Assembly (NCBI GenBank): GCA_016874005.1
Contig: VGVQ01000001.1
Coordinates: 434,001-498,000 of the forward strand
Direction of reading: 5' to 3'
DNA: 64,000 nt
Source: Gemmatimonadota bacterium
Lineage (GTDB): Bacteria > Gemmatimonadota > Gemmatimonadetes > Gemmatimonadales > GWC2-71-9
In this document: positions 1,978-63,163 of the stretch, piece by piece
Position numbering within the stretch: the first letter of the stretch is position 1
How the letters are laid out: the number at the start of each line of letters is the position of its first letter
Made by a program: the position numbers and the translations under genes
The notes under the pieces: generated by a model
What the model was told of the DNA's origin: nothing
Database searches by the model: none
The model's input: only the letters and a program-made list of their open reading frames with translations

Positions 1978-2781
1978 ATGACCGCGGCGGCACCCGCTTC
2001 CGGAACCGTTCGGGTCGCGACCCAGGCGATGGGCACCTGGTTCGCGATTACCGCGGAGGACGGCGATTCCCGTCGAGCCCGAGCCGCCGCCGACCTGGCG
2101 GTCGAACTGATCGAGGAGTTGCATGGCACCCTGACGAGATTCGAGTCATCGAGTCTCCTCGCCCACCTCGGCCGAATCGCGCCGCGGGCCGCCCCGGTGG
2201 ACCGGGACATCATTGAACTCCTGCTGGATGCCCGAGCCCTCGGCGCGGCGACCTCTGGCGCCTTCAGCCCGATCATCGCCGGCGGGTGGGACGACATCAC
2301 GATCGACCCGGATCGCGGGACGGTGGCGGTCGCCGACCCGGCCGTTTCGTTGGATTTCGGCGCCATTGCCAAAGGACACGCCGTGGATCGGGCCGTCGCC
2401 GTCCTGAGAGACGCCGGGGTAGCCCGAGGATTCGTCCATGGCGGAACGAGCAGCGGGGCGGGGTTTGGCGATCCGCCGTGGCGGGTGGGGCTGGGCGGTC
2501 CGAAGAGCCTGGTGATCGAATTGGCCGATCAGGCCTATGCCGTCTCGGCCACGGTTCAACGAACCGATGGGGGCGCCTCGATCCATCTGATCGATCGACG
2601 ATCCGGCGCCCCGGTCGCCGTCGACCGCCGCGTTGCGGTCGTCGGCCCCTGCGCCCGACGGGCTGACGGTTGGAGCACCGTGATCGCGATACTCGGCTTC
2701 GTGCCGCCATCGTTCGACGCCGGCAGCCGGGCCTGGGTGGCAAGCGGGCCCGGCCCTTGGAACGAGGTGTCCCGACGATGA
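1978..2781 (+). CDS. apbE: ApbE-like FAD:protein FMN transferase
   Basis: 267 residues. The ApbE motif DFGAIAKGHAVD in mid-protein matches the family's D(L/F)GGIAKGYAVD, and HGGTSSGAGFG fits the following nucleotide-binding turn. ApbE enzymes transfer FMN from FAD to a Ser/Thr of a target protein and use Mg2+. It is shorter than the usual 300-350 residues and has no signal peptide or lipobox, unlike exported ApbE, so it may be cytoplasmic. It sits between two Gfo/Idh/MocA genes, four bases after the first and overlapping the second by ATGA. No flavinylated partner is evident in the window. Confidence 0.82.
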   Translation: MTAAAPASGTVRVATQAMGTWFAITAEDGDSRRARAAADLAVELIEELHGTLTRFESSSLLAHLGRIAPRAAPVDRDIIELLLDARALGAATSGAFSPIIAGGWDDITIDPDRGTVAVADPAVSLDFGAIAKGHAVDRAVAVLRDAGVARGFVHGGTSSGAGFGDPPWRVGLGGPKSLVIELADQAYAVSATVQRTDGGASIHLIDRRSGAPVAVDRRVAVVGPCARRADGWSTVIAILGFVPPSFDAGSRAWVASGPGPWNEVSRR

Positions 2782-4010
2782 CCGAACTCGATCGCCGGGC
2801 CTTCCTCGCTCAGGCGGGTGGATCGGTCCTGGGAACGGCCCTGGTTCCGGAAAGCGACTTGGTGGGACCGCGCCAACTGCCCGCCCCGAAGCACATCGCC
2901 GTCGTCGGAACCGGTCGCCATGGACGGGCCATCCTCACGGAATTGAGTAAGATCGCCGGGGCCAAGGTCGTCGCGGTCTGCGATCTGAACCCGAGCCGGG
3001 TCAAGACCGCGCTCGAGCGTGCCCCGGGAGCCGAAGGCTTCAGCGACCACCGTGCCTTGCTCGAGAAACGGCGGGACCTGGATGCGGTGATCGTCGCGAC
3101 CCCCACCCATCTCCACCGGAAGGTCGTCGAGGACGCACTCCAGGCGGGCAAACACGTCTACTGCGAAGCGCCCCTGGCCCATACCATCGACGATGCCCGC
3201 GCCATTCTCGCCGCGGCCGAGGCAGCCAAACCGCGGCTCTTCATGGCGGGGTTCCAGGCCCGGTCGAACCCCGTCTACCAATTGGCCCGCACGTTCTACC
3301 GGACCGACGCGTTTCGCGATTTCATTGGCGCGACCACCCACTTCCACCGGAAGACCTCGTGGCGGTTCCCAGGGTCCGACCCGGCCTCGGAGGCGGCCGC
3401 CAACTGGCGATTGGACCCGGAGATCTCGCTCGGTCTGGCCGGCGAGGTCGGCGCCCACCAGTTCGATGTGGTGCATTGGTTCCGGGGGCGCTACCCGGCT
3501 TCGGTCACCGGCCACGGCGGCATTCTGCTGCACAAGGATGGTCGCAAGGTTGCCGACACCGTGCACGCCTCGCTCCGGTTCGGCGACGGGACCGCCATCG
3601 GGTTCGAGGCTTCGCTCGCCAATTCCTTCGGGAACCAACACGAGGTCGTTCGCGGCACCAACGGAGCGTTCAAGCTGGCGTGGACCCACGCCTGGATGTT
3701 CAAGGAGGTCGACGCGGCGACGTTAGGGTGGGAAGTCTACGCCCTCCGCCAGCAGTTTCATCAGGATGAAGGCATCATTGTCATAGCGGACGCAACCAAG
3801 CTCGCGGCGATCGGCCAGCTCAAGGCGGGCATCGGCCTGCCCTACCCACCGCTGTATTACGCCCTCGGCGACTTTCTCCGCAGTGTCAGCTTTCCGAACG
3901 TGCCGGTGGCGACCTCGGCCCGGGATGGCTTCCGGTCAACCGTGATCGCGATTCTCGCCAATCAGGCCGTGACATCCGGCTCCACGGTGACGGTACCGGC
4001 CGATCTCTGA
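2778..4010 (+). CDS. Gfo/Idh/MocA family oxidoreductase with Tat-type signal, EKP replaced by EAP
   Basis: 410 residues, starting at the ATG that overlaps the apbE stop. The N-terminus LDRRAFLAQAGGSVLG is Tat-like. The Rossmann motif AVVGTGRHGR is at about 41-50. At residues 130-132 the family motif reads EAP instead of EKP, so the usual catalytic Lys is absent. The second domain keeps GEVGAHQFDVVHWF, which supplies a His/Asp pair found in secreted members. It may be an oxidoreductase using another base, or a glycosidase-like or structural homologue. It is the last gene of the operon and is followed by a GC-rich hairpin. Confidence 0.87.
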   Translation: MTELDRRAFLAQAGGSVLGTALVPESDLVGPRQLPAPKHIAVVGTGRHGRAILTELSKIAGAKVVAVCDLNPSRVKTALERAPGAEGFSDHRALLEKRRDLDAVIVATPTHLHRKVVEDALQAGKHVYCEAPLAHTIDDARAILAAAEAAKPRLFMAGFQARSNPVYQLARTFYRTDAFRDFIGATTHFHRKTSWRFPGSDPASEAAANWRLDPEISLGLAGEVGAHQFDVVHWFRGRYPASVTGHGGILLHKDGRKVADTVHASLRFGDGTAIGFEASLANSFGNQHEVVRGTNGAFKLAWTHAWMFKEVDAATLGWEVYALRQQFHQDEGIIVIADATKLAAIGQLKAGIGLPYPPLYYALGDFLRSVSFPNVPVATSARDGFRSTVIAILANQAVTSGSTVTVPADL

Positions 4011-45699: not shown

Positions 45700-47115
45700 T
45701 CAGCCCCCTTCGCCGACCCCCGTTACCCTGGCCAGGCCTCGCTGAGCCTGCTGGAGGAACGGCCGCAATTCGGGGTCGCCCGCCTGCCATTGGCCAAGCA
45801 CCGCCCGATACTCGGTGGCGGCGTCCGCGACTCGGCCCAGCTGCTCGAGCGCCTGGCCGCGCAGAAGGCGGACTCGGGGCAAGAGGATCCAGCGGGCATC
45901 GAAACCCCGGGTCCCAAAGGTGCCGGGGTCGAACTCTTCCAGGGTCTCGACGACCTCGCGGTAGTCGCCCAGCGCGAAATAGGCTTCGGCGACGATCGGT
46001 CGCTTGTCGCCAGGGAACAGCCACTCGGCGTGGGCGGAGTCGTGTTTCGCACCGCCTTGATCCAGCAGTAGCCGCGCCCCGGTCGAGTCGCCTTCCCTGG
46101 CGGCGATCAAGGCTCGCAGAACGGCGGGACTCCGCTTCCGGGTCAGCCGTTCGAGCTCGCGCAGTGGGCGTTGGTCTTCGGACGGGCCGAGCAACAGTCC
46201 GACGGCGGTGGACCCGATGACTTCCGGGGCTCTCAGCCGTTCCTTTTCCGTTCCAGCGGCAACGATCGCGAGGCCTCGGTCCCAAACCTTCCGCAGTTGG
46301 TCGTGACGGGTCCCACTGGCGCTCAGGAGGGCACCAAGGCGGGCCAATTCCCAGAGATCGTCGGCCCGTCTCTTCTCCGCCGAATCCCGGGCTTCCGGGC
46401 GCTCGTTGAAGAGACGCCGACCAAGCAGGATGACCTGCTCGGCGCCTTCCACGTCGCCGAGATAACCGAGGGCGTCGGCGCCAGTCAGAACCTCGTAGAT
46501 CGGGTCGGGAGCAAAATCCAGCTCGCGGAACACCCTGGGTCGCACCCGGGGCAGCACGCTTCGCACCGTCTGGGCCGAACCTTCGATGTCGCCCCCGACA
46601 AACTGAGCTCGGGCGTCGAGGAACCCAAAGAACGGCTGCACCGAATCCGGAAAGAGCCCCCGCAATTGACTCACCGTCTGCCGGGCCTCGCTCACTCGAC
46701 CACCGGCCAGCAATGCCTTGTACAGGTGATAGTAGGCTCGAGGCGTGTTGGGTTGACGCCTGGTCCAGGCCCGGGCGAGTTCGACCGCTTGCCTCTGCGC
46801 GATGCGGCGGTTCTCCCGCTCCAGGGAACTATCGGGCTCGGTGGCTCCCCCTCGAGCGGTGACCAGCGTGTCGCCGGCAACGAGACGAAGCCAGCCATCG
46901 CGCTGCCCGGCGTCCGTCAGAAGAGCGCCAACGTGCTCGTAGGCCAGCGCGAATCCGGAGTCGAGGCCAATGACCCTGCTAAAGCCACGAAGCGACTGAT
47001 TGAGGAGGTTCGTTTCCCCCCGGGCATACCCGGAGTGGAAGGCGGCATCCGCCCAGCCGTACCAAGCCTCGACGTCGTTGGAGTCCTTGGCAACCAACTG
47101 GGCGTAGAGCGACAA
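45700..47115 (-). CDS. TPR-repeat C-terminal part of a frameshifted Ser/Thr kinase
   Basis: 471 residues from a TTG. The sequence is helical repeats: DVEAWYGWADAAFHSGYA, ALAYEHVGALLTDAGQ, and later DYREVVETLEEFDPGTFG. It continues directly from the upstream kinase ORF if one base is added in the GGGG run at 47130-47133. It therefore looks like the C-terminal half of a 1040-residue protein rather than a separate gene. The RnpB gene lies just after its end. Confidence 0.75.
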   Translation of the reverse strand: MSLYAQLVAKDSNDVEAWYGWADAAFHSGYARGETNLLNQSLRGFSRVIGLDSGFALAYEHVGALLTDAGQRDGWLRLVAGDTLVTARGGATEPDSSLERENRRIAQRQAVELARAWTRRQPNTPRAYYHLYKALLAGGRVSEARQTVSQLRGLFPDSVQPFFGFLDARAQFVGGDIEGSAQTVRSVLPRVRPRVFRELDFAPDPIYEVLTGADALGYLGDVEGAEQVILLGRRLFNERPEARDSAEKRRADDLWELARLGALLSASGTRHDQLRKVWDRGLAIVAAGTEKERLRAPEVIGSTAVGLLLGPSEDQRPLRELERLTRKRSPAVLRALIAAREGDSTGARLLLDQGGAKHDSAHAEWLFPGDKRPIVAEAYFALGDYREVVETLEEFDPGTFGTRGFDARWILLPRVRLLRGQALEQLGRVADAATEYRAVLGQWQAGDPELRPFLQQAQRGLARVTGVGEGG

Positions 47116-48830
47116 CCCCCGCTCGTAGTCCCCTCCAGGAAGGATTGGTACCCCTCGATCAGTTGCCGCTCCCGGGCGGGGAGCCGCTCGGAACTCAGGG
47201 CGGCCCGCCGGATCGCGCTCGAACCGATGGTATCAATCGGGCTGATCCAGCCCCGGGTGACCGCGAGCTTGTAGTTCGCCAGCGCGAAACCAGGGTCTCG
47301 ACGAACCGCCGCCTCCAGCGCCGCGCTCGCTTCCGAAAGCCGCCAGTGGTTGAGGGCGTCCACCCCTCGGAGGTAATCACGATAGGCTTCCAACGACGTC
47401 GTGGTGGCCGAGGCAAGTGTGGTTCGGGATTCGGCCGGAGCGCCGGTCAGTTCGAGCAGACGGGTGGCGAGGTCGTCGAACACCGGCCGAACGTCCCCAC
47501 TCGCGGTACCCCGCACCTCGATCAGGTCCAGTCGTCGACCGGTTGCCACGTCGTAGCGCCGCGCCGTTACCCTCAAGCTGTCGCCAACTTGGTTGAACTC
47601 GCCGAGCACCACGGTCCAGGCTCGACTGCGCCGGGCCATTCGGCGGGCCTCCGCGAGCCCGATCGGTTGCTCCGGGTCGCTCCGCTCGCCAACCAGATCG
47701 TGGACCCGTTCCTGGTCGACGACCGTCAGATCCTGCCACTGGGACAGCGCCAGCGACAGCATGTTGACGCTCCCCTCCCTCAGCCACTCGTATTGGGGGT
47801 CGTTGCGGAGGTTGTCGAACGGCAGTACCAGGAGCGAGAGCCCGGGATCCGTGCCGGGAGGCGGGCCGGTTGGCCGGAAGAGAGCGACGACCAGCGCGAC
47901 CGCGGCCACGCCGGCCGCGATGGCCACCGCCACGCCGCTTCGTTGCCGTCGGGTCCGGGCCCGGGAGAAGCGGACCATCGCGGGGACGCCGCCACCGAGG
48001 GCGGCTCGAAAGGCGGCCCCGGTCTGCCACCGGTGATCGGGCACCTTCTCCAACAGGGTCATCACCGCGTCGGAAATCGGCGGCGCCAGGTCGGGCACGA
48101 GTTCCCCGACTGGGGTGGGTGCGTCGAGGATCTGCTTCGAGATCACCGCCCGCTGCGAGCCGACGAACGGAGGTCGTCCGGTGAGCATCTCGTAGGAAAC
48201 CACCCCGAGCGAATACAGGTCGCTTCGGCCATCGATGACCTCGCCGGCGGCCTGTTCCGGGCTCATGTAGGCCGGGGTGCCCATCACCGCTCCGGGCCCG
48301 GTTCGGTTCGAGTCGGCCTCGCTGAGCCGAGCGATCCCGAAGTCGGCCAAGAGCGCCCGGGGCCGTTCGGCGGATCCCTCGAGGAGGATGTTCTCGGGCT
48401 TCAGATCGCGGTGGATGATCCCGGCGGCGCGAGCGGCATCGAGCGCCGAGGCAATCTCCCCGGCGATGGCCATCGCCAGATCGGCCGTTAGGCGGCCCTC
48501 GCGGGTCAGGCACGCTCGGAGGGTCTCCCCGGCGTGATAGTCCATCACGAAATAGAACAACCCGTTGACTTCGCCGCCGGCATGGACGGCGACGATGTTC
48601 GGATGGCGGAGCTTGGCGATGGCGCGAGCTTCCGAAAGGAAGCGCTCGGCCACCGTCGGGTTGGAGCCGAGTTCGGGCTGAATGACTTTGATCGCGACGG
48701 GTCGGTCGAGCGTCAGGTCGTGGGCGAGGTAGACGACCCCCATGCCACCGCGCCCGAGTTCGGGTTCGATCCGGTACTGCCCACCCAGCGCCTGGGCCAG
48801 GGGTCCGAACTCGTCCGCTGCACCGGTCAT
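46917..48830 (-). CDS. Serine/threonine protein kinase, N-terminal part (frameshifted)
   Basis: The intact frame holds a full kinase: GRGGMGVV (26-33), Lys48 in VAIKVI, HRD at 140-142 (HRDLKPEN), DFG at 163-165, and a single membrane helix near 305-325 (GVAVAIAAGVAAVALVVALF). After it come a FlgO/TolB-like segment and the first TPRs. The natural reading frame ends around residue 565; the rest of this ORF (Pro/Ser-rich) is out-of-frame. See the downstream ORF for the missing half. Confidence 0.82.
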   Translation of the reverse strand: MTGAADEFGPLAQALGGQYRIEPELGRGGMGVVYLAHDLTLDRPVAIKVIQPELGSNPTVAERFLSEARAIAKLRHPNIVAVHAGGEVNGLFYFVMDYHAGETLRACLTREGRLTADLAMAIAGEIASALDAARAAGIIHRDLKPENILLEGSAERPRALLADFGIARLSEADSNRTGPGAVMGTPAYMSPEQAAGEVIDGRSDLYSLGVVSYEMLTGRPPFVGSQRAVISKQILDAPTPVGELVPDLAPPISDAVMTLLEKVPDHRWQTGAAFRAALGGGVPAMVRFSRARTRRQRSGVAVAIAAGVAAVALVVALFRPTGPPPGTDPGLSLLVLPFDNLRNDPQYEWLREGSVNMLSLALSQWQDLTVVDQERVHDLVGERSDPEQPIGLAEARRMARRSRAWTVVLGEFNQVGDSLRVTARRYDVATGRRLDLIEVRGTASGDVRPVFDDLATRLLELTGAPAESRTTLASATTTSLEAYRDYLRGVDALNHWRLSEASAALEAAVRRDPGFALANYKLAVTRGWISPIDTIGSSAIRRAALSSERLPARERQLIEGYQSFLEGTTSGGCRSTPSWLPRTPTTSRLGTAGRMPPSTPGMPGGKRTSSISRFVALAGSLASTPDSRWPTSTLALF

Positions 48831-49009: not shown

Positions 49010-49942
49010 GTGACGGCGCCACTGTTGACCCGGTTCCCTGCCCCAAAGGCCCCGATGCCCGAGTTCCCGCGGTTGACCATTGCGGCGGTGGTCGCGCCGG
49101 CGGAACGTCCCCACCTCGACGCCGCGGCCGCCGGGTGCTTTTCGATCGTTCACCGGCAGTCTCTTCCCGAGGCGGCGCGAAGCGTCCGGGAGCAGCCGGT
49201 CGACGCGGTGGTCTTTTCGGTCGACCATTGCCGTGGTCCCCAGGTGGCGTACGTCGACGACTTCATTCGTCGATATCCGGACGTACCGACGTTCGCGTTG
49301 GTTACGCGGGCCGAGCCGGAAACCTCCGAGGCGTTGCTGCGGCTCGGAGCCAGCGGCGTCCGCCACGTGGTCGACGTCACCGGACCCCGGGGTTGGCAAC
49401 GGCTTCGGCAGGTGCTCGCCGAGCCCGCTTCGCGACCGGCGGCCAGGATCCTGGCTCGATTCCTCGATGCCCTGCCCGAGCTGGTGCCCAGCACCCGGAT
49501 GTTCCTCGAGCTGGTCGTTCGAATGGCCCCCTCCGTACCGGTCGCACGCCGGTTGGCCCGTCACACCCGGTTGCGGCCGAGCACCCTGATGTCCCGGTTC
49601 GCCCGAGCTGGCCTGCCCTCACTCAAGACTTACGTCGCTGCGATCCGCCTTCTATACGCCGCTCAATACTTCGAGACGGAGGGCCTTTCCGTCGGCGACG
49701 TCGCCTACCGCCTGGAATGCTCCTCCCCGCAGAGCTTTGGGAGGCACCTGCGGGCCATGCTGGGTATCACGGCGGGCGAGTTCCGGCGCCGCTACTCCTT
49801 CGACGCCGCAGCCACCCGGTTCGTTGCGCTGCTGTTTGAGCCCTACCGGGAGAATTGGCGACTGTTCAAGCCGCTGGAGGGAGCCTTCAGGGACGGAACG
49901 GCGCTGAAACCCCTACGGCGCCGGGTGAAGGCCAAGCGCTGA
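49010..49942 (+). CDS. AraC-family regulator with degenerate receiver-like domain
   Basis: 310 residues from a GTG (ATG at 49055 is an alternative). Residues 30-150 resemble a response-regulator fold (VDAVVFSVDH, FIRRYPDVPTFALVTR, LLRLGASGVRHVV) but lack the clear phospho-acceptor Asp. Residues 190-290 are a two-HTH AraC domain (RPSTLMSRFARAGLP, LSVGDVAYRLECSSPQSFGRHLRAMLG). It diverges from the first kinase gene. Its 3' end overlaps the convergent pyrE by 30 bases. Confidence 0.82.
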   Translation: MTAPLLTRFPAPKAPMPEFPRLTIAAVVAPAERPHLDAAAAGCFSIVHRQSLPEAARSVREQPVDAVVFSVDHCRGPQVAYVDDFIRRYPDVPTFALVTRAEPETSEALLRLGASGVRHVVDVTGPRGWQRLRQVLAEPASRPAARILARFLDALPELVPSTRMFLELVVRMAPSVPVARRLARHTRLRPSTLMSRFARAGLPSLKTYVAAIRLLYAAQYFETEGLSVGDVAYRLECSSPQSFGRHLRAMLGITAGEFRRRYSFDAAATRFVALLFEPYRENWRLFKPLEGAFRDGTALKPLRRRVKAKR

Positions 49943-50470
49943 GGTAGTTGTTATAAATACTACTTTGATTCCGAGGTCGGCAATTCGCGCTGCCCCGCCC
50001 TGCTCGCGATCGACTACCGCCAAGACGCCCAACACCTCCCCTCCCTCGTTTCGGATCGCCTCGATCGCTTGGACGGTCGAGCCGCCAGTCGTCACAACGT
50101 CTTCGACGACGACCACTTTGGACCCCGGATCGAAGTTGCCCTCCACCCGGCGTTTGGTGCCGTGTTCCTTGGCGGCCTTTCGGACGCTGAACGCCTGGAT
50201 GACTGGGGGGGCGTCCAGGCTGGCCCGCGCAATTGCGTAGGCGACCGGGTCGGCGCCCATAGTGAGTCCGCCGACGGCCTCAGGCGCCCAGCCGGCCTGA
50301 CGAATGGCTGCCAGGCCGAGTCGTCCGATGACTGCCTGACCCTCGGCCGACATGGTGGTTTTGCGGGCATCGATGTAGTAGCGGGATTTCTGGCCGGACG
50401 CGAGAACGAAGTCTCCGAAGCGAACCGAGCGGGCCAGAAGGAGGGTATTGAGTGCGGCCTGGTCGCTCAC
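49913..50470 (-). CDS. pyrE: Orotate phosphoribosyltransferase
   Basis: 185 residues from a GTG at 50470. The PRPP-binding motif VVVVEDVVTTGGST is complete, and SGQKSRYYIDARKTTM is typical PyrE N-terminal sequence. It makes OMP from orotate and PRPP. The GTG overlaps the stop of a Ser/Thr kinase gene (GTGA), an odd partner for a pyrimidine gene. Its 3' end overlaps the convergent AraC gene. Confidence 0.95.
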   Translation of the reverse strand: MSDQAALNTLLLARSVRFGDFVLASGQKSRYYIDARKTTMSAEGQAVIGRLGLAAIRQAGWAPEAVGGLTMGADPVAYAIARASLDAPPVIQAFSVRKAAKEHGTKRRVEGNFDPGSKVVVVEDVVTTGGSTVQAIEAIRNEGGEVLGVLAVVDREQGGAARIADLGIKVVFITTTSALGLHPAP

Positions 50471-51369
50471 TCTTTGCCGCGGCGAAAAAGCGACGAGAGG
50501 AAGCCGCTCTTCTCCTTGGTGGGCTGACCGGCTGCGCATTGGCCAAAGGCCGTGGCGAAGTCGCCGACGGTCTTCCACCTCTTGTCGAGGTCGCGTTCCA
50601 GCCCCTTCATTACCACCGCCTCGAGCTCGGGGTTCATCTTGATACCCTTGGCGGCCTGGCCGATCGGAATCGGTGGTTTGCTGAGTAGTTGCTGGAACAA
50701 CTCTCTCGGATTCTTCCCGGGATATGGGAGTTGCCCGGTCAGCAGGTGATACGCGATTGTGGCGAGGCTGTAGACGTCGGCTTGCTCCTTGACGAGCTCG
50801 CCGCTCAAGGCCTCGGGGGCGACATACTGGAGTGTCCCGACGAAGAACCCGGCCCGGGTCAGGCGCTGGGCCGGGTCGTCCTCGGCGTCACGGGCAATGC
50901 CGAAGTCGAGGAGTCGTGCTGTCTGGGTTGCCGGGTCATACATGATGTTTGCCGGCTTGAGATCTCGATGGATGATGCCGGCACCGTGAGCCACGCCGAG
51001 GGCCGCGCCCAATTGGCTGACGATCTTGCCAACCAAGTCAGGGGCCAAGGGCCCCGCCGCTGTCAGGAAGCTGGCGAGTGGTTCTCCGGCGGCCCACTCC
51101 AAGGCGAGGTAATACATCCCCTCGGCCTCTCCGAACTCGTAGGTGCGAACGATGTTCGGGTGATTCAGCCGGGCGCCGAACTCTGCTTCTCGGAGGAACC
51201 GCTTGACCACGACCGGATCCTGCGCCATTCGACCCCGGAGGATTTTCACGGCGGCAACGCCCTTGTCGGGATGCTGGGCGCGATACACCGTCGCGGTTCC
51301 GCCTTCGCCTACGTGGGCGAGCAGCTTGTACCCGGCCACGGTGCGACCGACGAGATTATCTTGGCTCAT
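50467..51369 (-). CDS. Serine/threonine protein kinase
   Basis: 300 residues from the ATG at 51369 (a TTG three codons earlier is possible). A complete Hanks-type kinase: GEGGTATVYR, Lys42 (AAVKILRG), HRD at 134-136, DFG at 155-157, and the activation segment GTLQYVAPEALSG. No membrane helix; the C-terminus is basic (FLSSLFRRGKE), which may favour membrane or RNA contact. It lies four bases over pyrE. Confidence 0.93.
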   Translation of the reverse strand: MSQDNLVGRTVAGYKLLAHVGEGGTATVYRAQHPDKGVAAVKILRGRMAQDPVVVKRFLREAEFGARLNHPNIVRTYEFGEAEGMYYLALEWAAGEPLASFLTAAGPLAPDLVGKIVSQLGAALGVAHGAGIIHRDLKPANIMYDPATQTARLLDFGIARDAEDDPAQRLTRAGFFVGTLQYVAPEALSGELVKEQADVYSLATIAYHLLTGQLPYPGKNPRELFQQLLSKPPIPIGQAAKGIKMNPELEAVVMKGLERDLDKRWKTVGDFATAFGQCAAGQPTKEKSGFLSSLFRRGKE

Positions 51370-51453: not shown

Positions 51454-52827
51454 ATGGATGCAATGAAGCGATCGAGTCTCGCCAGTTGGATTCTGGCGCT
51501 CGGGCTCGTGGCGGGTTGTGGCGGTGCCCGCGGCAACCCCGGCGGTCCCCCGGGAACCGTGACCGATCAGACGCTCACCGAGCTGTTCAATCTCCAGGCC
51601 GTCTACCAGCGGCTTGGCCGACTCGCCGGGATCGGCCCGATTCCGTTCGTGGGCAACGTCGCGCTGCTCGCCGGGCGCGGCGACTCCACCCTGCTCCACC
51701 TGGGCTTGTCGCTCGAGAATCGGTCGCTGTCGTTTCAGCGCGATGGCGGGACCTTCGCCGCCCGGTATCGGGTCGACGTCAGTCTCCAACGACAGGGTGC
51801 CACGCCGGTCCAGAGCTCGACCACCAACCTGGTCCGAGTGGGGTCGTTCCAAGAAGCGCAGCGAGGGGAAGAGTCGATCTTCTTCCACCAAGGCTTCCTC
51901 CTGGTACCCGGGACGTACAGCCTAACGGTCGTCGTCGCCGATTTGGCCGCCAACGCCGCCAGCCGCGTCGAGCGTACGGTCGACGTGCCGTCGTTCGGGC
52001 CCGGTTCGCTCTCGGTTCCGGCAATGGTCTACGAGGTCCGCTCGCGAACCGCCGCCGCCGAGTCGCTCCATGCGATCCTCAACCCCAGGGGCACCGTGGC
52101 GCACGGTGGCGGCGATACCCTCTACCTCTACGTCGAGGGTTATCGGTATCCCGGGCCAACCAGACTCCCGGTGGAAGTCCGTGACGAGCAGGACAGCGTC
52201 GTGTATCGAGGTCAAGTTGAATTCGCGGGGGGCAGGGCAGTGGAGGGTCGGATCGTCAGGGTGGCGTCCGACGCGCCGCCGCTGGGCGAGTTGACCATCT
52301 CCATCGGGGAGGGCACATCGGCTCGCCGAACCAAGGCGCTGGTCTCGTTCGCGCGCGGATGGGTGGTCACCAACTATGAGAACCTCCTGAGCCTGTTGCG
52401 TTTCTTCCCCTACGAGCCGGGGCTGCTGGGCCAACTCCGAGGGGCGCGAGCCTCCGATCGAGCGAGATTGTGGCGCCAATTCTGGGAATTGACCGACCCG
52501 ATGCCGGAGACACCGGAGAACGAGGCGCTCGATCGGTACTTCACCCGGATTGCGATCGCCAACGAGCGGTTCCGCGATGAGGCTGGGGAAGGATGGCGCA
52601 CCGATCGAGGCGAGGTCTTCATCACCCTCGGCGAACCCGATCAGGTCTACGAGACGCCTCCGTCGTCGGACCGGCGGCAGTATCGCTGGATCTACAACGA
52701 ATACCGGGTGGTGCTCGACTTCGAGGGGACGCTCGGATTCTCCCGGATCAGGCTGACGCCGAGTTCGCGATCCGAGTTCGCTCGCGCCCGCTCGCTCGTG
52801 GGGCGGGACGTCCGGCGCCAGCGCTAG
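51454..52827 (+). CDS. GWxTD-domain lipoprotein
   Basis: 457 residues from the ATG with AAGGA seven bases upstream. The lipobox is LVAGCG in a short hydrophobic leader. The GWxTD motif is seen as GWRTDRGEVFITLGEPDQVYE near residue 390, followed by RQYRWIYNEYRVVLDF. The middle is beta-rich. GWxTD proteins are common in Acidobacteria and Gemmatimonadota but have no assigned function. It diverges from the second kinase gene and ends before a strong hairpin. Confidence 0.85.
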   Translation: MDAMKRSSLASWILALGLVAGCGGARGNPGGPPGTVTDQTLTELFNLQAVYQRLGRLAGIGPIPFVGNVALLAGRGDSTLLHLGLSLENRSLSFQRDGGTFAARYRVDVSLQRQGATPVQSSTTNLVRVGSFQEAQRGEESIFFHQGFLLVPGTYSLTVVVADLAANAASRVERTVDVPSFGPGSLSVPAMVYEVRSRTAAAESLHAILNPRGTVAHGGGDTLYLYVEGYRYPGPTRLPVEVRDEQDSVVYRGQVEFAGGRAVEGRIVRVASDAPPLGELTISIGEGTSARRTKALVSFARGWVVTNYENLLSLLRFFPYEPGLLGQLRGARASDRARLWRQFWELTDPMPETPENEALDRYFTRIAIANERFRDEAGEGWRTDRGEVFITLGEPDQVYETPPSSDRRQYRWIYNEYRVVLDFEGTLGFSRIRLTPSSRSEFARARSLVGRDVRRQR

Positions 52828-52913: not shown

Positions 52914-55673
52914 ATGGCGCATAGTCCCCCTCAGCTGTTCTTGATCGACGGCCACGCCCTCATCTATCGAGCGTTCTTCGCCCTGATCAGCCGGCCGCTG
53001 CGGACATCCCGGGGAGAGAACACATCGGCGGCTTGGGGCGTGATCAACTTCCTCCTGCGCCTGGATACCAAATACCAGCCAGACTACCTGGTCTGGGTTC
53101 TCGATAAGGGCGACTCGTTCCGGACCGCTCTGTATCCCGACTACAAGTCGACTCGCCAGAAGCTCGATGCCGAGCTGCAGCAGGACTTCGACCTCGCCCT
53201 GGCCCAAGTGAACGAGCTGCTCACCGCTCTGCGAGTGCCGGTGTTGGCGGTCGAGGGCTACGAGGCGGACGACGTCATCGGGACACTGTCTCGCCAAGCG
53301 GTCGAACAGGGAACCCAGGTGGTGATCGTCTCGGGCGACAAGGACTTCTACCAACTGATCGCGCCGCGGGTCGCACTGCTCAATCCGGGCCGGGGCGGCC
53401 CCGCCCAAGTGGACGAGCAGTGGGTCGACCTGAGCAACGCGACCGAACGGCTCGGTGTTCCGCCTGAGCGGGTGGTCGACTACCTGGCCTTGGTCGGCGA
53501 CTCGTCAGACAATGTCCCGGGCGTTCGCGGGGTCGGCGAGAAAACGGCGATTCAGCTCATCGCCGATTTCGGCGGCCTCGATTCCATTCTTGCTCATCGC
53601 GACCAAGTGAAGGCCAAACGGGCCCGGGAGAGCCTGGCGACAGACGCGGAGAACGCCAAGCTGTCCCGCAACCTGGTCACCATTCGGGACGACGTCCCGC
53701 TCGAGTTCGACCTGACGGCCGCGGCGCGGGCGCGACCTGACGTGGAGGCGCTCCGACGGGTGCTGACTCGTCTCGAATTCCACACTCTCATCGCCAAGCT
53801 CGATCTGGCGGCCGAAGCGCCGCCCGCGACCGGGCCGTCGCCGTCCGGAAGCCCGCCATCGGTTGCCGCCGTCGAAGGGACCGACTCGCTTCTGGCGGTC
53901 ATCGACAGCTGCCGTCGGGCCCCGATGGTGGCGATCCGTACCGTATCCCTGGGCGCCGATTCGCGGCTGCCGCAGTTGCTCGGTGTCGGCCTCGCCGTCC
54001 CTGGACAGGCCTGGTACCTGCCGATCGGGCACCGGCCGGCGGACGGTGAGTTGGCCGCGCCACCCCCGGTTGCCAATCTTCCAGCCCTTGGCGACCCGGC
54101 GATGTCGCCGCTTCGAGAACTGCTCGCCGATTCGGGCGTGGCGAAAGCTTGCCACAACGCCAAGCAGGATTGGCTCCGCCTCAGAGCATTGGGAATCGAG
54201 CTGGCCGGGCTCAGGTTCGACACCATGCTGGCGAGCTTCGTCCTCGACCCAGGCAAACGGTCGCACGATCTCGATGTCTTGGCCCTCGATCACCTGGGGC
54301 GACAAATCCCGAACCTGCCGGCCACCGGGGCCGGCCAGGACCCCGCCACGGTGGCGATATCGGCCGCGGCCGCCAGCCATGGGGGCGCCGCCGAGACGAT
54401 CTTGGCGCTTGCCGATCACCTGAGTTGCCGACTCGACGAGACTTCGTTGCGACCGCTCTTCGAAGGGGTCGAGCTGCCGCTGGTCGAAGTCTTGGTCGAC
54501 ATGGAATGGACCGGGATTGCGATCGACCAAAGCGTGTTTCAACGCCTCTCACAAGAACTCACCGCGGACCTGGTGCGGCTGGAGCGCGAGTTGGCCGCCG
54601 GGGCAGGGGGAGCGATCAACCTCAACAGCCCCAAGCAGCTGGCCACCATTCTTTTCGATCGGCTCGGCCTCCCGGTGCTCAAACGGACGAAAACCGGGCC
54701 GTCGACGGATGCGGACGTGCTGGAACAGCTCGCGGAGATGGGCCACGCCGTACCGAAACTCCTCCTCGAGTACCGGGAGCTCCAAAAACTCAAGAGCACC
54801 TACGTCGACGTGCTGCCGGGCCGGGTGTCCAAAGTGACCGGCCGAATCCACACGACCTTCAACCAGACCGGCGCCGCCACCGGCCGGCTGTCCTCGTCTG
54901 ATCCGAATCTCCAGAACATTCCGGTTCGCACGCCGCGCGGCGAGGCCATCCGGCGCGGCTTCGTGCCCGCCTCGGGCTGGAAGTTCGTTGTCGCCGACTA
55001 CTCGCAGATCGAGTTACGGTTGATGGCCCATCTCTCCGGCGATCCGGCCTTCGTCGCGGCGTTTCGGGAGGGGGGGGACATCCACCGCCAAACGGCGGCC
55101 ATCATCTTCGGGGTCCCCCCGGAAGCGGTCACCGGCCAGATGCGAGCCCAAGCGAAGACCATCAACTTCGGTACCATCTACGGTCAGGGGCCGTTTGCCT
55201 TGAGCAAGCAGCTTGGAATCTCGCTCGACGAGGCCAAGCGCTTCATCGCCGAGTACTTTCAGCGATTCGCGGGGGTCCGCAGCTATCTCGACCGCCAGGT
55301 CGAGATCGCACGAGCACAGGGGTATGTCGAGACCCTCTTCCACCGACGGCGCTACATTCCCGAGATCAAGGACAAGAACTTCAATACCAGGGCCTTCGGT
55401 GAGCGTCTGAGCCAGAACTCCCCGCTTCAGGGCTCCGCGGCCGACCTCATCAAGCTCGCCATGATCCGGCTTCATCAAGCGTTCGAGGTCGAGGCCTTGC
55501 GGGCCCGGCTGCTGCTCCAGGTGCACGACGAACTGGTGATCGAGACGCCCCAGGACGAAACAGCCAGGGTCTCGACCCTCGTCAAACATCACATGGAGAG
55601 TGTAGCCGAGTTGACGGTGCCGCTCGTGGTCGATGTCGGTGTGGGAGACAACTGGCTCGACGCGAAGAGCTGA
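52914..55673 (+). CDS. polA: DNA polymerase I (Klenow type, proofreading site lost)
   Basis: 919 residues. The N-terminal 5'-3' exonuclease (1-290) is complete (DGHALIYRAFFAL, GYEADDVIGTL, GDSSDNVPGVRGVGEKTA). The middle exonuclease domain keeps the fold (CHNAKQDWLRL, FDTMLASFVLDP), but the DxE of exo I reads IRTVS near residue 338 and the exo III Tyr/Asp motif is absent. The polymerase has VADYSQIELR, RAQAKTINFGTIYGQG and LQVHDELVIE. It fills Okazaki gaps and repair tracts, probably without proofreading. No Shine-Dalgarno is seen. Confidence 0.96.
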   Translation: MAHSPPQLFLIDGHALIYRAFFALISRPLRTSRGENTSAAWGVINFLLRLDTKYQPDYLVWVLDKGDSFRTALYPDYKSTRQKLDAELQQDFDLALAQVNELLTALRVPVLAVEGYEADDVIGTLSRQAVEQGTQVVIVSGDKDFYQLIAPRVALLNPGRGGPAQVDEQWVDLSNATERLGVPPERVVDYLALVGDSSDNVPGVRGVGEKTAIQLIADFGGLDSILAHRDQVKAKRARESLATDAENAKLSRNLVTIRDDVPLEFDLTAAARARPDVEALRRVLTRLEFHTLIAKLDLAAEAPPATGPSPSGSPPSVAAVEGTDSLLAVIDSCRRAPMVAIRTVSLGADSRLPQLLGVGLAVPGQAWYLPIGHRPADGELAAPPPVANLPALGDPAMSPLRELLADSGVAKACHNAKQDWLRLRALGIELAGLRFDTMLASFVLDPGKRSHDLDVLALDHLGRQIPNLPATGAGQDPATVAISAAAASHGGAAETILALADHLSCRLDETSLRPLFEGVELPLVEVLVDMEWTGIAIDQSVFQRLSQELTADLVRLERELAAGAGGAINLNSPKQLATILFDRLGLPVLKRTKTGPSTDADVLEQLAEMGHAVPKLLLEYRELQKLKSTYVDVLPGRVSKVTGRIHTTFNQTGAATGRLSSSDPNLQNIPVRTPRGEAIRRGFVPASGWKFVVADYSQIELRLMAHLSGDPAFVAAFREGGDIHRQTAAIIFGVPPEAVTGQMRAQAKTINFGTIYGQGPFALSKQLGISLDEAKRFIAEYFQRFAGVRSYLDRQVEIARAQGYVETLFHRRRYIPEIKDKNFNTRAFGERLSQNSPLQGSAADLIKLAMIRLHQAFEVEALRARLLLQVHDELVIETPQDETARVSTLVKHHMESVAELTVPLVVDVGVGDNWLDAKS

Positions 55674-60940: not shown

Positions 60941-61540
60941 TTATCCGGCCACTGGGGGCGACGCAAGGGGGGGCGCAATGGTGGCTCCAGGCGCCGATAG
61001 GTGGCTTCTGGGCGCTGGCTTGCCGTAGCGTCCCGCCGGGCGGTGGCGGCGGTTCCATTCCTCCGCGAGACAGAGGGAGTCGGGTCCGTCGGCCCGATCC
61101 GTTGCCAGGATACCGTCGAGGTGATCGATCTCGTGTTGGAGGAGTTCGGCTCGGTCCCCCTCGGCCGTCACCTCCAGCCAGTTGGCCCTGAGGTCTTGGT
61201 ATCGCACCGTGATCAGGTAGGCCCGGCGGACCCGAACCCAAAGGTCGGGGAAGGAGAAACAGTCGTCCCAGACCTCGAAGTCTTCGGCCCCGATCGAGAC
61301 GATTTCGGGGTTCACTAGGGTCCATGGCTCGTCGAGCTCGACGTGGAGCAGGCGGATCGGAGCCCCGATCTGCGGGGCCGCGATTCCCCGACCGCTGTCG
61401 AACCGCCGCCGCCAATCGAGGAGGGTGTCCCGGAGGTCGTCAGCGATCAGCCGAACTGCGGCAGACTGGGGTCTCTCGATCGGCTCGCAAGCGACCCGGA
61501 GGATAGGATCGCCCAGGGCCCGAATCCGATGCACGGCCAT
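60941..61540 (-). CDS. def: Peptide deformylase, divergent motif 2
   Basis: 199 residues from the ATG at 61540 (alternative 61579). Motif 1 is GRGIAAPQIG, motif 3 is LQHEIDHLDG with HEXXD/H. Motif 2, normally EGCLS, reads DDCFS (FEVWDDCFSFPDLWVRVRR); the Cys that binds the metal is kept. The C-terminus extends about 30 residues, Arg/Pro-rich. It removes the formyl group of N-terminal fMet, or a related activity. It diverges from sufB. Confidence 0.85.
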   Translation of the reverse strand: MAVHRIRALGDPILRVACEPIERPQSAAVRLIADDLRDTLLDWRRRFDSGRGIAAPQIGAPIRLLHVELDEPWTLVNPEIVSIGAEDFEVWDDCFSFPDLWVRVRRAYLITVRYQDLRANWLEVTAEGDRAELLQHEIDHLDGILATDRADGPDSLCLAEEWNRRHRPAGRYGKPAPRSHLSAPGATIAPPLASPPVAG

Positions 61541-61646
61541 GGCACCGATAATGGGATTCGGTTGGAGATTCCGCAACATGAAGAATGAGTAGCAAAGAAT
61601 ACTACCATACTGGTCCTGGGATCATATCACGCTGACACAGCGTCGT

Positions 61647-61675: not shown

Positions 61676-61726
61676 TTCGCCTCGGCACGCTTGGCGCGGT
61701 CCCAAGTAAGGAAGGAACACCTCGCA

Positions 61727-63163
61727 GTGAGCGAGTCCGTCGAAGCCCTGGTCAATCGTGAGTACAAGTGGGGGTTCGTCACTGACATCGAGTCGGAAAC
61801 GATCCCGCCTGGTCTCAACGAAGATGTCGTTCGACTGATCTCGACGAAGAAGGGAGAGCCGACCTTCCTGCTCGAGTGGCGGCTCAAGGCCTTCCGGGCC
61901 TGGCTCAAGATGACCGAGCCCCATTGGCCGAACGTGCAGTACGATCCGATCGATTATCAACGAATCGTCTACTACGCGGCCCCGAAGACCGCCAAGCCGC
62001 TCGGGAGCCTCGACGACGTCGATCCCAAGATCCGAGAGACTTACGACAAACTCGGGATTCCGCTGACCGAACAGAAGATTCTTTCGGGAGTCGCGGTCGA
62101 CGCGGTGTTCGACAGCGTTTCAGTCGGAACGACGTACAAGAAGCAGCTCGCCGAACTCGGTATCGTCTTCTGCTCGTTCTCGGAGGCGGTTCGCGAGCAT
62201 CCGGACCTGGTGCAGCGGTACCTGGGGTCGGTGGTGCCCTCGAGCGACAACTTCTTTGCCGCGCTGAACTCCGCTGTGTTCAGCGACGGGTCGTTCGTGT
62301 ACGTGCCGAAGGGCGTTCGCTGCCCGATGGACCTGTCGACCTATTTCCGGATCAATGCCCAGAACACCGGTCAGTTCGAGCGAACGCTGATCATCGCGGA
62401 TGAAGGCGCAACGGTCAGCTACCTCGAGGGGTGTACCGCGCCGAAGCGGGACGAGAACCAGCTCCATGCGGCGGTCGTCGAGCTGGTGGCGCTGGGGGGC
62501 GCGACGATCAAGTACTCCACGGTACAGAACTGGTATGCCGGAGACGAGCAGGGGCGGGGCGGGATCTATAATTTCGTCACCAAGCGCGGAAAATGTGTCG
62601 GCCCCCGGAGCAAGATCTCCTGGACTCAGGTCGAAACCGGATCCGCGATTACCTGGAAGTACCCCAGCGTGATCCTTCAGGGCGACGGCTCGGTTGGCGA
62701 GTTCTACTCGGTGGCCGTCGTCAATGGCCGCCAGCAGGCCGACACTGGCACCAAGATGATTCACATCGGCCGCGACACCAAGAGCACGATCGTATCGAAG
62801 GGCATTTCCGCTGGGCGCGGCCAGAACAGCTATCGGGGGCTGGTCAAGGTAATGCCCCGGGCGGAACGAGCCCGCAACTACACCCAGTGCGATTCCATGC
62901 TGATCGGCAACGCCTGCGGGGCGCACACCTTCCCGTACATCGACGTCCGGAGCCGGACGGCGGCCGTCGAGCACGAGGCGTCGACGTCGAAGATCGGTGA
63001 AGATCAGATCTTCTATCTCAAGCAACGCGGCCTCAACACCGAGAACGCGATTTCAATGATCGTCAACGGCTTCTGCAAAGAAGTCTTCCGTGAGCTGCCA
63101 ATGGAGTTTGCGGTCGAGGCCCAGAAGCTCCTCGGCATCAGCCTCGAAGGCAGCGTCGGGTAA
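61727..63163 (+). CDS. sufB: Fe-S cluster assembly protein SufB
   Basis: 478 residues from a GTG with AAGGA upstream (the upstream ATG would add 12 residues over the promoter region). The SufB beta-helix fold is evident: [27 protein letters not shown] with the conserved Cys, [23 protein letters not shown], and [20 protein letters not shown] at the end. With SufC and SufD it builds clusters. First gene of sufBCD. Confidence 0.98.

Follow-up and report, generated by a model that had tools for sequence, protein, structure and literature searches.

Palindromes kept within coding sequence around pyrE in Gemmatimonadota, candidate operators for a TrmB-family regulator

The lac and gal operons have auxiliary operators inside lacZ and galE, and the roadblock operator of purB lies inside the purB coding region. 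In E. coli this operator is a site for PurR (He and Zalkin, 1992, cited in PMC6640053). Archaeal TrmB, TrmBL1 and Tgr recognize the sites TACT-N3-AGTA or TATCAC-N5-GTGATA and have sugar genes as targets (PMC4158304). The PASTA kinases StkP and PknB affect pyrimidine metabolism (PMC7011611; PMC8537086).

We compared these systems with a kinase-pyrE gene pair in the window, by which we mean the whole stretch of 64,000 nucleotides analysed here, taken from a 3.88 Mb genome in 49 contigs. We consider it rather likely, from comparison of sequences, that a TrmB-family autoregulator controls pyrE through operators predicted to lie within genes. The literature that we searched contained no report of a TrmB regulator or of pyrE regulation in Gemmatimonadota, and we found in it no paper on a kinase-pyrE or TrmB-pyrE association.

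The first gene of the pair encodes a Ser/Thr protein kinase of 300 aa (50467..51369, - strand; Pfam Pkinase, 4.2e-47). The second is pyrE, encoding an orotate phosphoribosyltransferase of 185 aa (49913..50470, - strand), which was identified by profile search (TIGR00336, 140.1 bits against a cut-off of 106.8). Full-length pyrE is single copy in the genome, the other match being weak and partial (38% over 69 aa, E 5e-5). The 4-base overlap of the two genes described in an earlier note on this DNA was confirmed: both lie on the - strand and the 3' end of the kinase gene and the 5' end of pyrE share GTGA, so that pyrE has a GTG start within the kinase stop. The catalytic Lys, HRDxxxxN and DFG of Hanks-type kinases are kept in 50 of 50 orthologues and the kinase is probably active as an enzyme. 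We expect it to have no transmembrane segment. It resembles StkP and PknB in being a Hanks-type Ser/Thr kinase linked to pyrimidine metabolism, here by gene adjacency. However, StkP and PknB are transmembrane PASTA kinases that act genome-wide, whereas the present kinase is small, lacks PASTA domains and is encoded beside pyrE. We rejected an identity as a PASTA kinase (PknB/Stk1) because NF033483 scored 239 bits against 450 and matched the kinase domain alone.

The C-terminal tail of the kinase, KSGFLSSLFRRGKE (window 50467-50510), is conserved. Its Gly-(F/L)-(L/F) is kept in most orthologues, within a GFLSSLF-like motif G-(F/L)-(L/F)-S-S-(L)-F. This tail resembles the membrane-targeting tail of MinD, and the kinase may be located at the membrane. 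As a MinD-like membrane anchor the tail is no more than an idea, since its helical moments were unremarkable despite the conserved motif.

The pairing of the two genes is widely kept. In 29 of 29 relatives with a fetched pyrE locus, the gene immediately upstream of pyrE, in the same orientation, encodes an orthologue of the kinase (57-86% identical). The exact 4-bp overlap occurs in about half of all locus records, and the remaining records have a gap that is mostly <70 bp. In family f2, the orthologue (52-56% identical) was located in 11 of 12 genomes tested, with the same orientation as pyrE and between 46 bp and 1.9 kb upstream of it, and most genomes of this family have an insertion of ~1 kb between the two genes. 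No kinase orthologue at E 1e-60 was found in the tested genomes of families f4-f10. The pairing is thus conserved across the order (f1, f3 and most f2 genomes tested), and chance is excluded. The earlier note had named a lack of conservation in relatives as the ground for dropping its claim; with these counts the ground does not apply to the kinase-pyrE pair, and the part of the claim that concerned the AraC overlap fared differently (see below). Divergent from the kinase is a gene for a GWxTD-domain protein (51454..52827, + strand; PF20094, TIGR04514), followed by polA (52914-55673), and this order is kept in most relatives.

More distant relatives, in which kinase and pyrE are separated, hold a palindrome in the gap, for example GGTAGTAGCCATCACTACTACC, with the consensus GTAGTWGY-N4-RCWACTAC. 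A scan of 295 genomes of the class found the strict palindrome in 25, nearly all of them in f1 (some genera) and f3, and found none in f2 genomes. It usually occurs exactly twice per genome, and reversed-pattern controls gave 0 matches in those genomes. In f1, one of the two copies usually falls in the kinase-pyrE spacer and the other just before the start of a TrmB-like regulator gene. About 20 further genomes, some of them from the window's lineage, likewise have such a palindrome immediately 5' of the TrmB-like start codon. Paired sites at the regulator start and in the kinase-pyrE spacer are the signature expected of a protein that controls its own gene and acts mainly on pyrE. The f3 genomes differ, their second palindrome being near greA and not near pyrE. 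In three f3 records (L159, L162 and L163) this second copy falls within a thioredoxin-like gene (named by eye), at its 3' end and ~200 bp upstream of greA. Additional perfect sites occur in two genomes, G019 and G022, close to def/sufR, rnd and other genes. Those near def/sufR are at the junction of def and sufB, beside a SufR-like gene, and at the same junction in the window, between def (60941-61579, - strand) and sufB (61691-63163, + strand), there is a weaker copy that agrees at 13/16 positions (61586-61605).

In the window itself, where kinase and pyrE overlap, two copies of the palindrome are found within coding sequence. O1, GTAGTTGCTGGAACAACTCT (reverse strand AGAGTTGTTCCAGCAACTAC), occupies 50685..50704 in the kinase codons E-L-F-Q-Q-L-L, with its centre ~225 bp 5' of the pyrE start. 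O2, GTAGTTGTTATAAATACTAC, occupies 49944..49963 in the final pyrE codons V-V-F-I-T-T-T, ~517 bp 3' of the pyrE start and 741 bp from O1. When O1 was found, the motif had already been defined, from spacer and regulator sites of sister clades. With up to 2 mismatches allowed (<=2), O1 and O2 are the only matches in the whole 3.88 Mb genome, and O2, with 1 mismatch, is the best match that the genome contains. The count of palindromes in this genome is not in excess (the reversed control gave 12), but their position is non-random. Across 15 genomes of the lineage, 21 of 61 matches at the same threshold are O1 or O2, in a stretch that makes up ~0.02% of the DNA searched in those genomes. A wide regulon in the window's own genome was considered and rejected, a 3-mismatch pattern having given 14 matches vs 203 in the control.

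The codons at both sites are constrained beyond what the protein sequence requires. For this we permuted synonymous codons using each gene's own usage. At O1, 20 of 36 kinases of the lineage reached p<0.05 in this codon shuffle (Fisher 4e-16) vs 2 of 14 elsewhere, and at O2 so did 15 of 33 pyrE genes of the lineage (Fisher 6e-10) vs 1 of 33 elsewhere; these combined p-values overstate independence because the genomes are related, and we delimited the lineage by hand instead of taking it from a tree. The codon choices behind the O1 result include TTG for the first Leu in 21/36 kinases, compared with 9.5% overall, and CTA for the second in 14/36, compared with 3.6% overall. GC3 dips at the O1 and O2 codons in the window's lineage only. 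O1 and O2 also tend to occur together, with both in 14 genomes, neither in 9 and a single one in 9 (Fisher p 0.03). Seven lineage genomes with the regulator have neither site (L011, L040, L044, L049, L050, L056 and L062). A plain profile of synonymous conservation, in which O1 is the top window of the kinase gene, was left unused since the genomes had been chosen for having O1.

The candidate binder is encoded elsewhere in the genome (G000 C7:45200-45889), and the TrmB-like gene is single copy in 50 of the 54 genomes tested. Among these 54 it was not found in the f2 genomes (3/3 tested) or in G002, a genome that has O1 and O2 with 2 mismatches each though no regulator was found in it. All 40 regulator orthologues contain the PF01978 winged-helix DNA-binding domain (best E 2e-16). 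A profile search matched Pyrococcus TrmB 3qph over 164 residues (E 3e-17), and Foldseek returned 3qph (TM 0.64 by query length), the sugar-binding domain 2f5t and PLD-family matches. Profile and Foldseek results together give the full-length TrmB architecture, with a linker helix and a phospholipase-D-like effector domain, although PF11495 was recognized by sequence in 1 of 40 orthologues only. By these profile and fold matches the regulator is a TrmB-family protein. Its identity as archaeal TrmB or TrmBL1 was rejected (NCBIfam equivalog scores of 35 bits vs 600 and 32 vs 650).

Like the archaeal proteins, it combines a PF01978 winged helix with an effector-like C-terminal domain that has the TrmB fold, and as in the archaeal group there are palindromes at promoters, with autoregulation having been proposed for Tgr (PMC4158304). 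By contrast, this is a bacterial protein, the site is of the form GTAGT...ACTAC and the proposed main target is pyrE. About a dozen genomes, besides the window's own, have the regulator gene packed against its upstream neighbour and no palindrome before it; because this palindrome is gone, autoregulation appears to have been lost in these genomes. The neighbour directly upstream of the regulator is a conserved gene of ~370 aa (L168, about 2091-3195; orthologues in L145-L156), for which a Pfam search returned no family.

We propose that the TrmB-family regulator binds the palindrome, presumably as a dimer. In sister genera such a dimer would occlude the region of the pyrE promoter in the spacer as well as the regulator's own promoter. 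The kinase and pyrE genes of the window's lineage have drawn together, and there O1, within the 3' region of the kinase gene, and O2, in the last codons of pyrE, would serve as the pyrE operators, both retained through synonymous codon choice and bracketing pyrE at a distance of 741 bp. Most probably the effect would be repression of pyrE, through a roadblock to elongating polymerase, through an O1-O2 loop or through a blocked internal promoter near O1, and it would be relieved by a ligand in the phospholipase-D-like effector domain. The kinase would probably be made together with PyrE. We infer the binding, the repression, the ligand and the roadblock or loop from the arrangement of sites and genes. 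Against the proposal count the lineage genomes that have the regulator and neither site, the presence of both sites in G002 without a regulator being found, the f3 site at greA, the additional perfect sites of G019 and G022, and the lost palindrome before the regulator gene in the window's own genome and others.

The position of O1 and O2 within transcribed coding DNA fits that of a roadblock operator of the purB type, a fit of location only. The purB system (cited in PMC6640053) too has a nucleotide-synthesis gene repressed by roadblock, which is the likeness to our reading of pyrE. However, PurR is a LacI-type protein acting in the purine pathway, whereas the candidate binder here is TrmB-like and the roadblock is only proposed. 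In addition, unlike purB, two sites bracket pyrE, one of them within the upstream gene. The likeness to lac and gal is that operators lie in coding DNA, in lac several hundred bp from another operator, which permits looping; the repressor family differs, and the loop at pyrE is only proposed.

A stronger form of this model, in which a bacterial TrmB-family repressor serves pyrE almost wholly and its operators moved, as the genes closed up, from the spacer into synonymous codons on either side of pyrE, perhaps with DNA looping over the entire gene, is possible but in our judgment somewhat doubtful. If true, the operators would have passed in the course of evolution from one spacer site to two sites within genes. 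Control of pyrE by a TrmB-family regulator, if true, would be a new way of regulating a pyrimidine gene, in place of PyrR, attenuation or PurR. It would also be a clear example from nature of regulatory DNA being kept within codons as the protein sequence evolves. The regulon would consist of two genes and two sites, small enough for full testing, in a phylum with almost no experimental genetics. Ordinary annotation would miss such in-gene control of pyrE.

Several other explanations were weighed against control by the TrmB-family regulator. The palindromes could be real operators of another winged-helix protein, for example the SufR-like one, or of the adjacent AraC-type protein. The perfect sites near def/sufR in G019 and G022, together with the weaker copy between def and sufB in the window, suggest that another binder or a wider regulon is possible, and an AraC gene adjoins pyrE in many genomes. 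Nevertheless, most genomes that have strict sites carry one of the two immediately 5' of the TrmB-like gene, and the SufR-like gene has no such pattern beyond the two genomes. As for AraC, O2 is present without a nearby araC in L006, L013, L014, L015 and L052. We therefore hold a different binder to be unlikely. Because O2 is retained where no araC follows pyrE, its main function is not to shield against convergent transcription. Alternatively, the sites might act as RNA hairpins in mRNA stability or attenuation. Palindromes always permit hairpins and these are in transcribed DNA. However, positions 8 and 13 vary independently as Y and R, and the combinations include C-A, which disrupts base pairing on the transcribed strand; each half-site holds its own consensus, as expected for a dimeric DNA binder, and sites before the start of the regulator are typical of operators. 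This makes a role as RNA very improbable.

It is distinctly unlikely, in our view, that the operon mainly matches a kinase with its substrate, the kinase phosphorylating PyrE or a partner and the palindromes being secondary. The catalytic residues are kept in all 50 orthologues and the kinase-pyrE neighbourhood is order-wide. PyrE has been found in the phosphoproteome of Streptococcus thermophilus (PMC6593474) and loss of pneumococcal phpP raises the abundance of PyrE (PMC7011611). Against this, the ~1 kb insertion separates kinase and pyrE in most f2 genomes. Genomes in which the kinase adjoins pyrE keep Thr39 and Ser/Thr128 of PyrE more consistently than other genomes do, but this comparison is confounded by ancestry, and we rejected phosphosites proposed from conservation for this reason. 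Action of this kinase on PyrE is a guess for which gene adjacency is the sole evidence. Finally, the codon bias might be a by-product of local AT-richness, rare-codon pausing or shared ancestry, with a coincidental match to the sister palindrome. The genomes are related and GC3 at the 3' end of pyrE is generally low in the window's lineage. On the other hand, none of 150 letter-permuted palindromes equalled the excess of the true one, at O1 or at O2, the sole two genome-wide matches are 741 bp apart around pyrE, and sister clades have no bias at the same codons. A by-product of this kind is hardly probable at all.

Convergent with pyrE is the gene for the AraC-type regulator (49055..49942, + strand; HTH_18, E 3e-11). 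Because orthologues place the start there, ATG 49055 is the more likely start than the alternative GTG 49010. In an AlphaFold2 model the N-terminal domain has the (beta-alpha)5 fold of a receiver (pLDDT 89), with Foldseek matches to FixJ, CheY-type proteins and PhoP, and the C-terminal region is all-helical and contains the AraC-type DNA-binding domain. In the alignment, Ser55 is at the phospho-acceptor position and is invariant in 25 orthologues. The absence of the Asp identifies the domain as a pseudo-receiver, in agreement with the earlier description of a receiver-like domain lacking the acceptor Asp. Two Ser/Thr kinase genes are near this pseudo-receiver with its invariant Ser at the acceptor position, and it might be a kinase target.

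The 30-base overlap of pyrE and the AraC gene is also real: their 3' ends are convergent, with the AraC stop at 49942, and the AraC gene is antisense to pyrE within the last 30 bp only. The idea that this antisense arrangement is a regulatory feature did not hold up. Many genomes have the AraC gene in convergent orientation to pyrE, but in some there is no araC in the vicinity. The distance between the stops of pyrE and araC ranges from -30 bp to several kb, and the genes overlap in four genomes only. Because the overlap is so variable and rare, we ruled it out as regulation, and on this comparison it is incidental and no conserved device.

Near the AraC gene is the second kinase gene, which has a TPR-type C-terminal region (45700..48830, - strand). 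Its reading frame in the window is broken by a frameshift at about 47112-47133, and the break is a sequencing error, an assembly error or the mark of a decayed gene. In relatives the kinase-TPR protein is encoded without interruption, in a single frame of 1058-1108 aa (stop to stop) to which the two window frames align.
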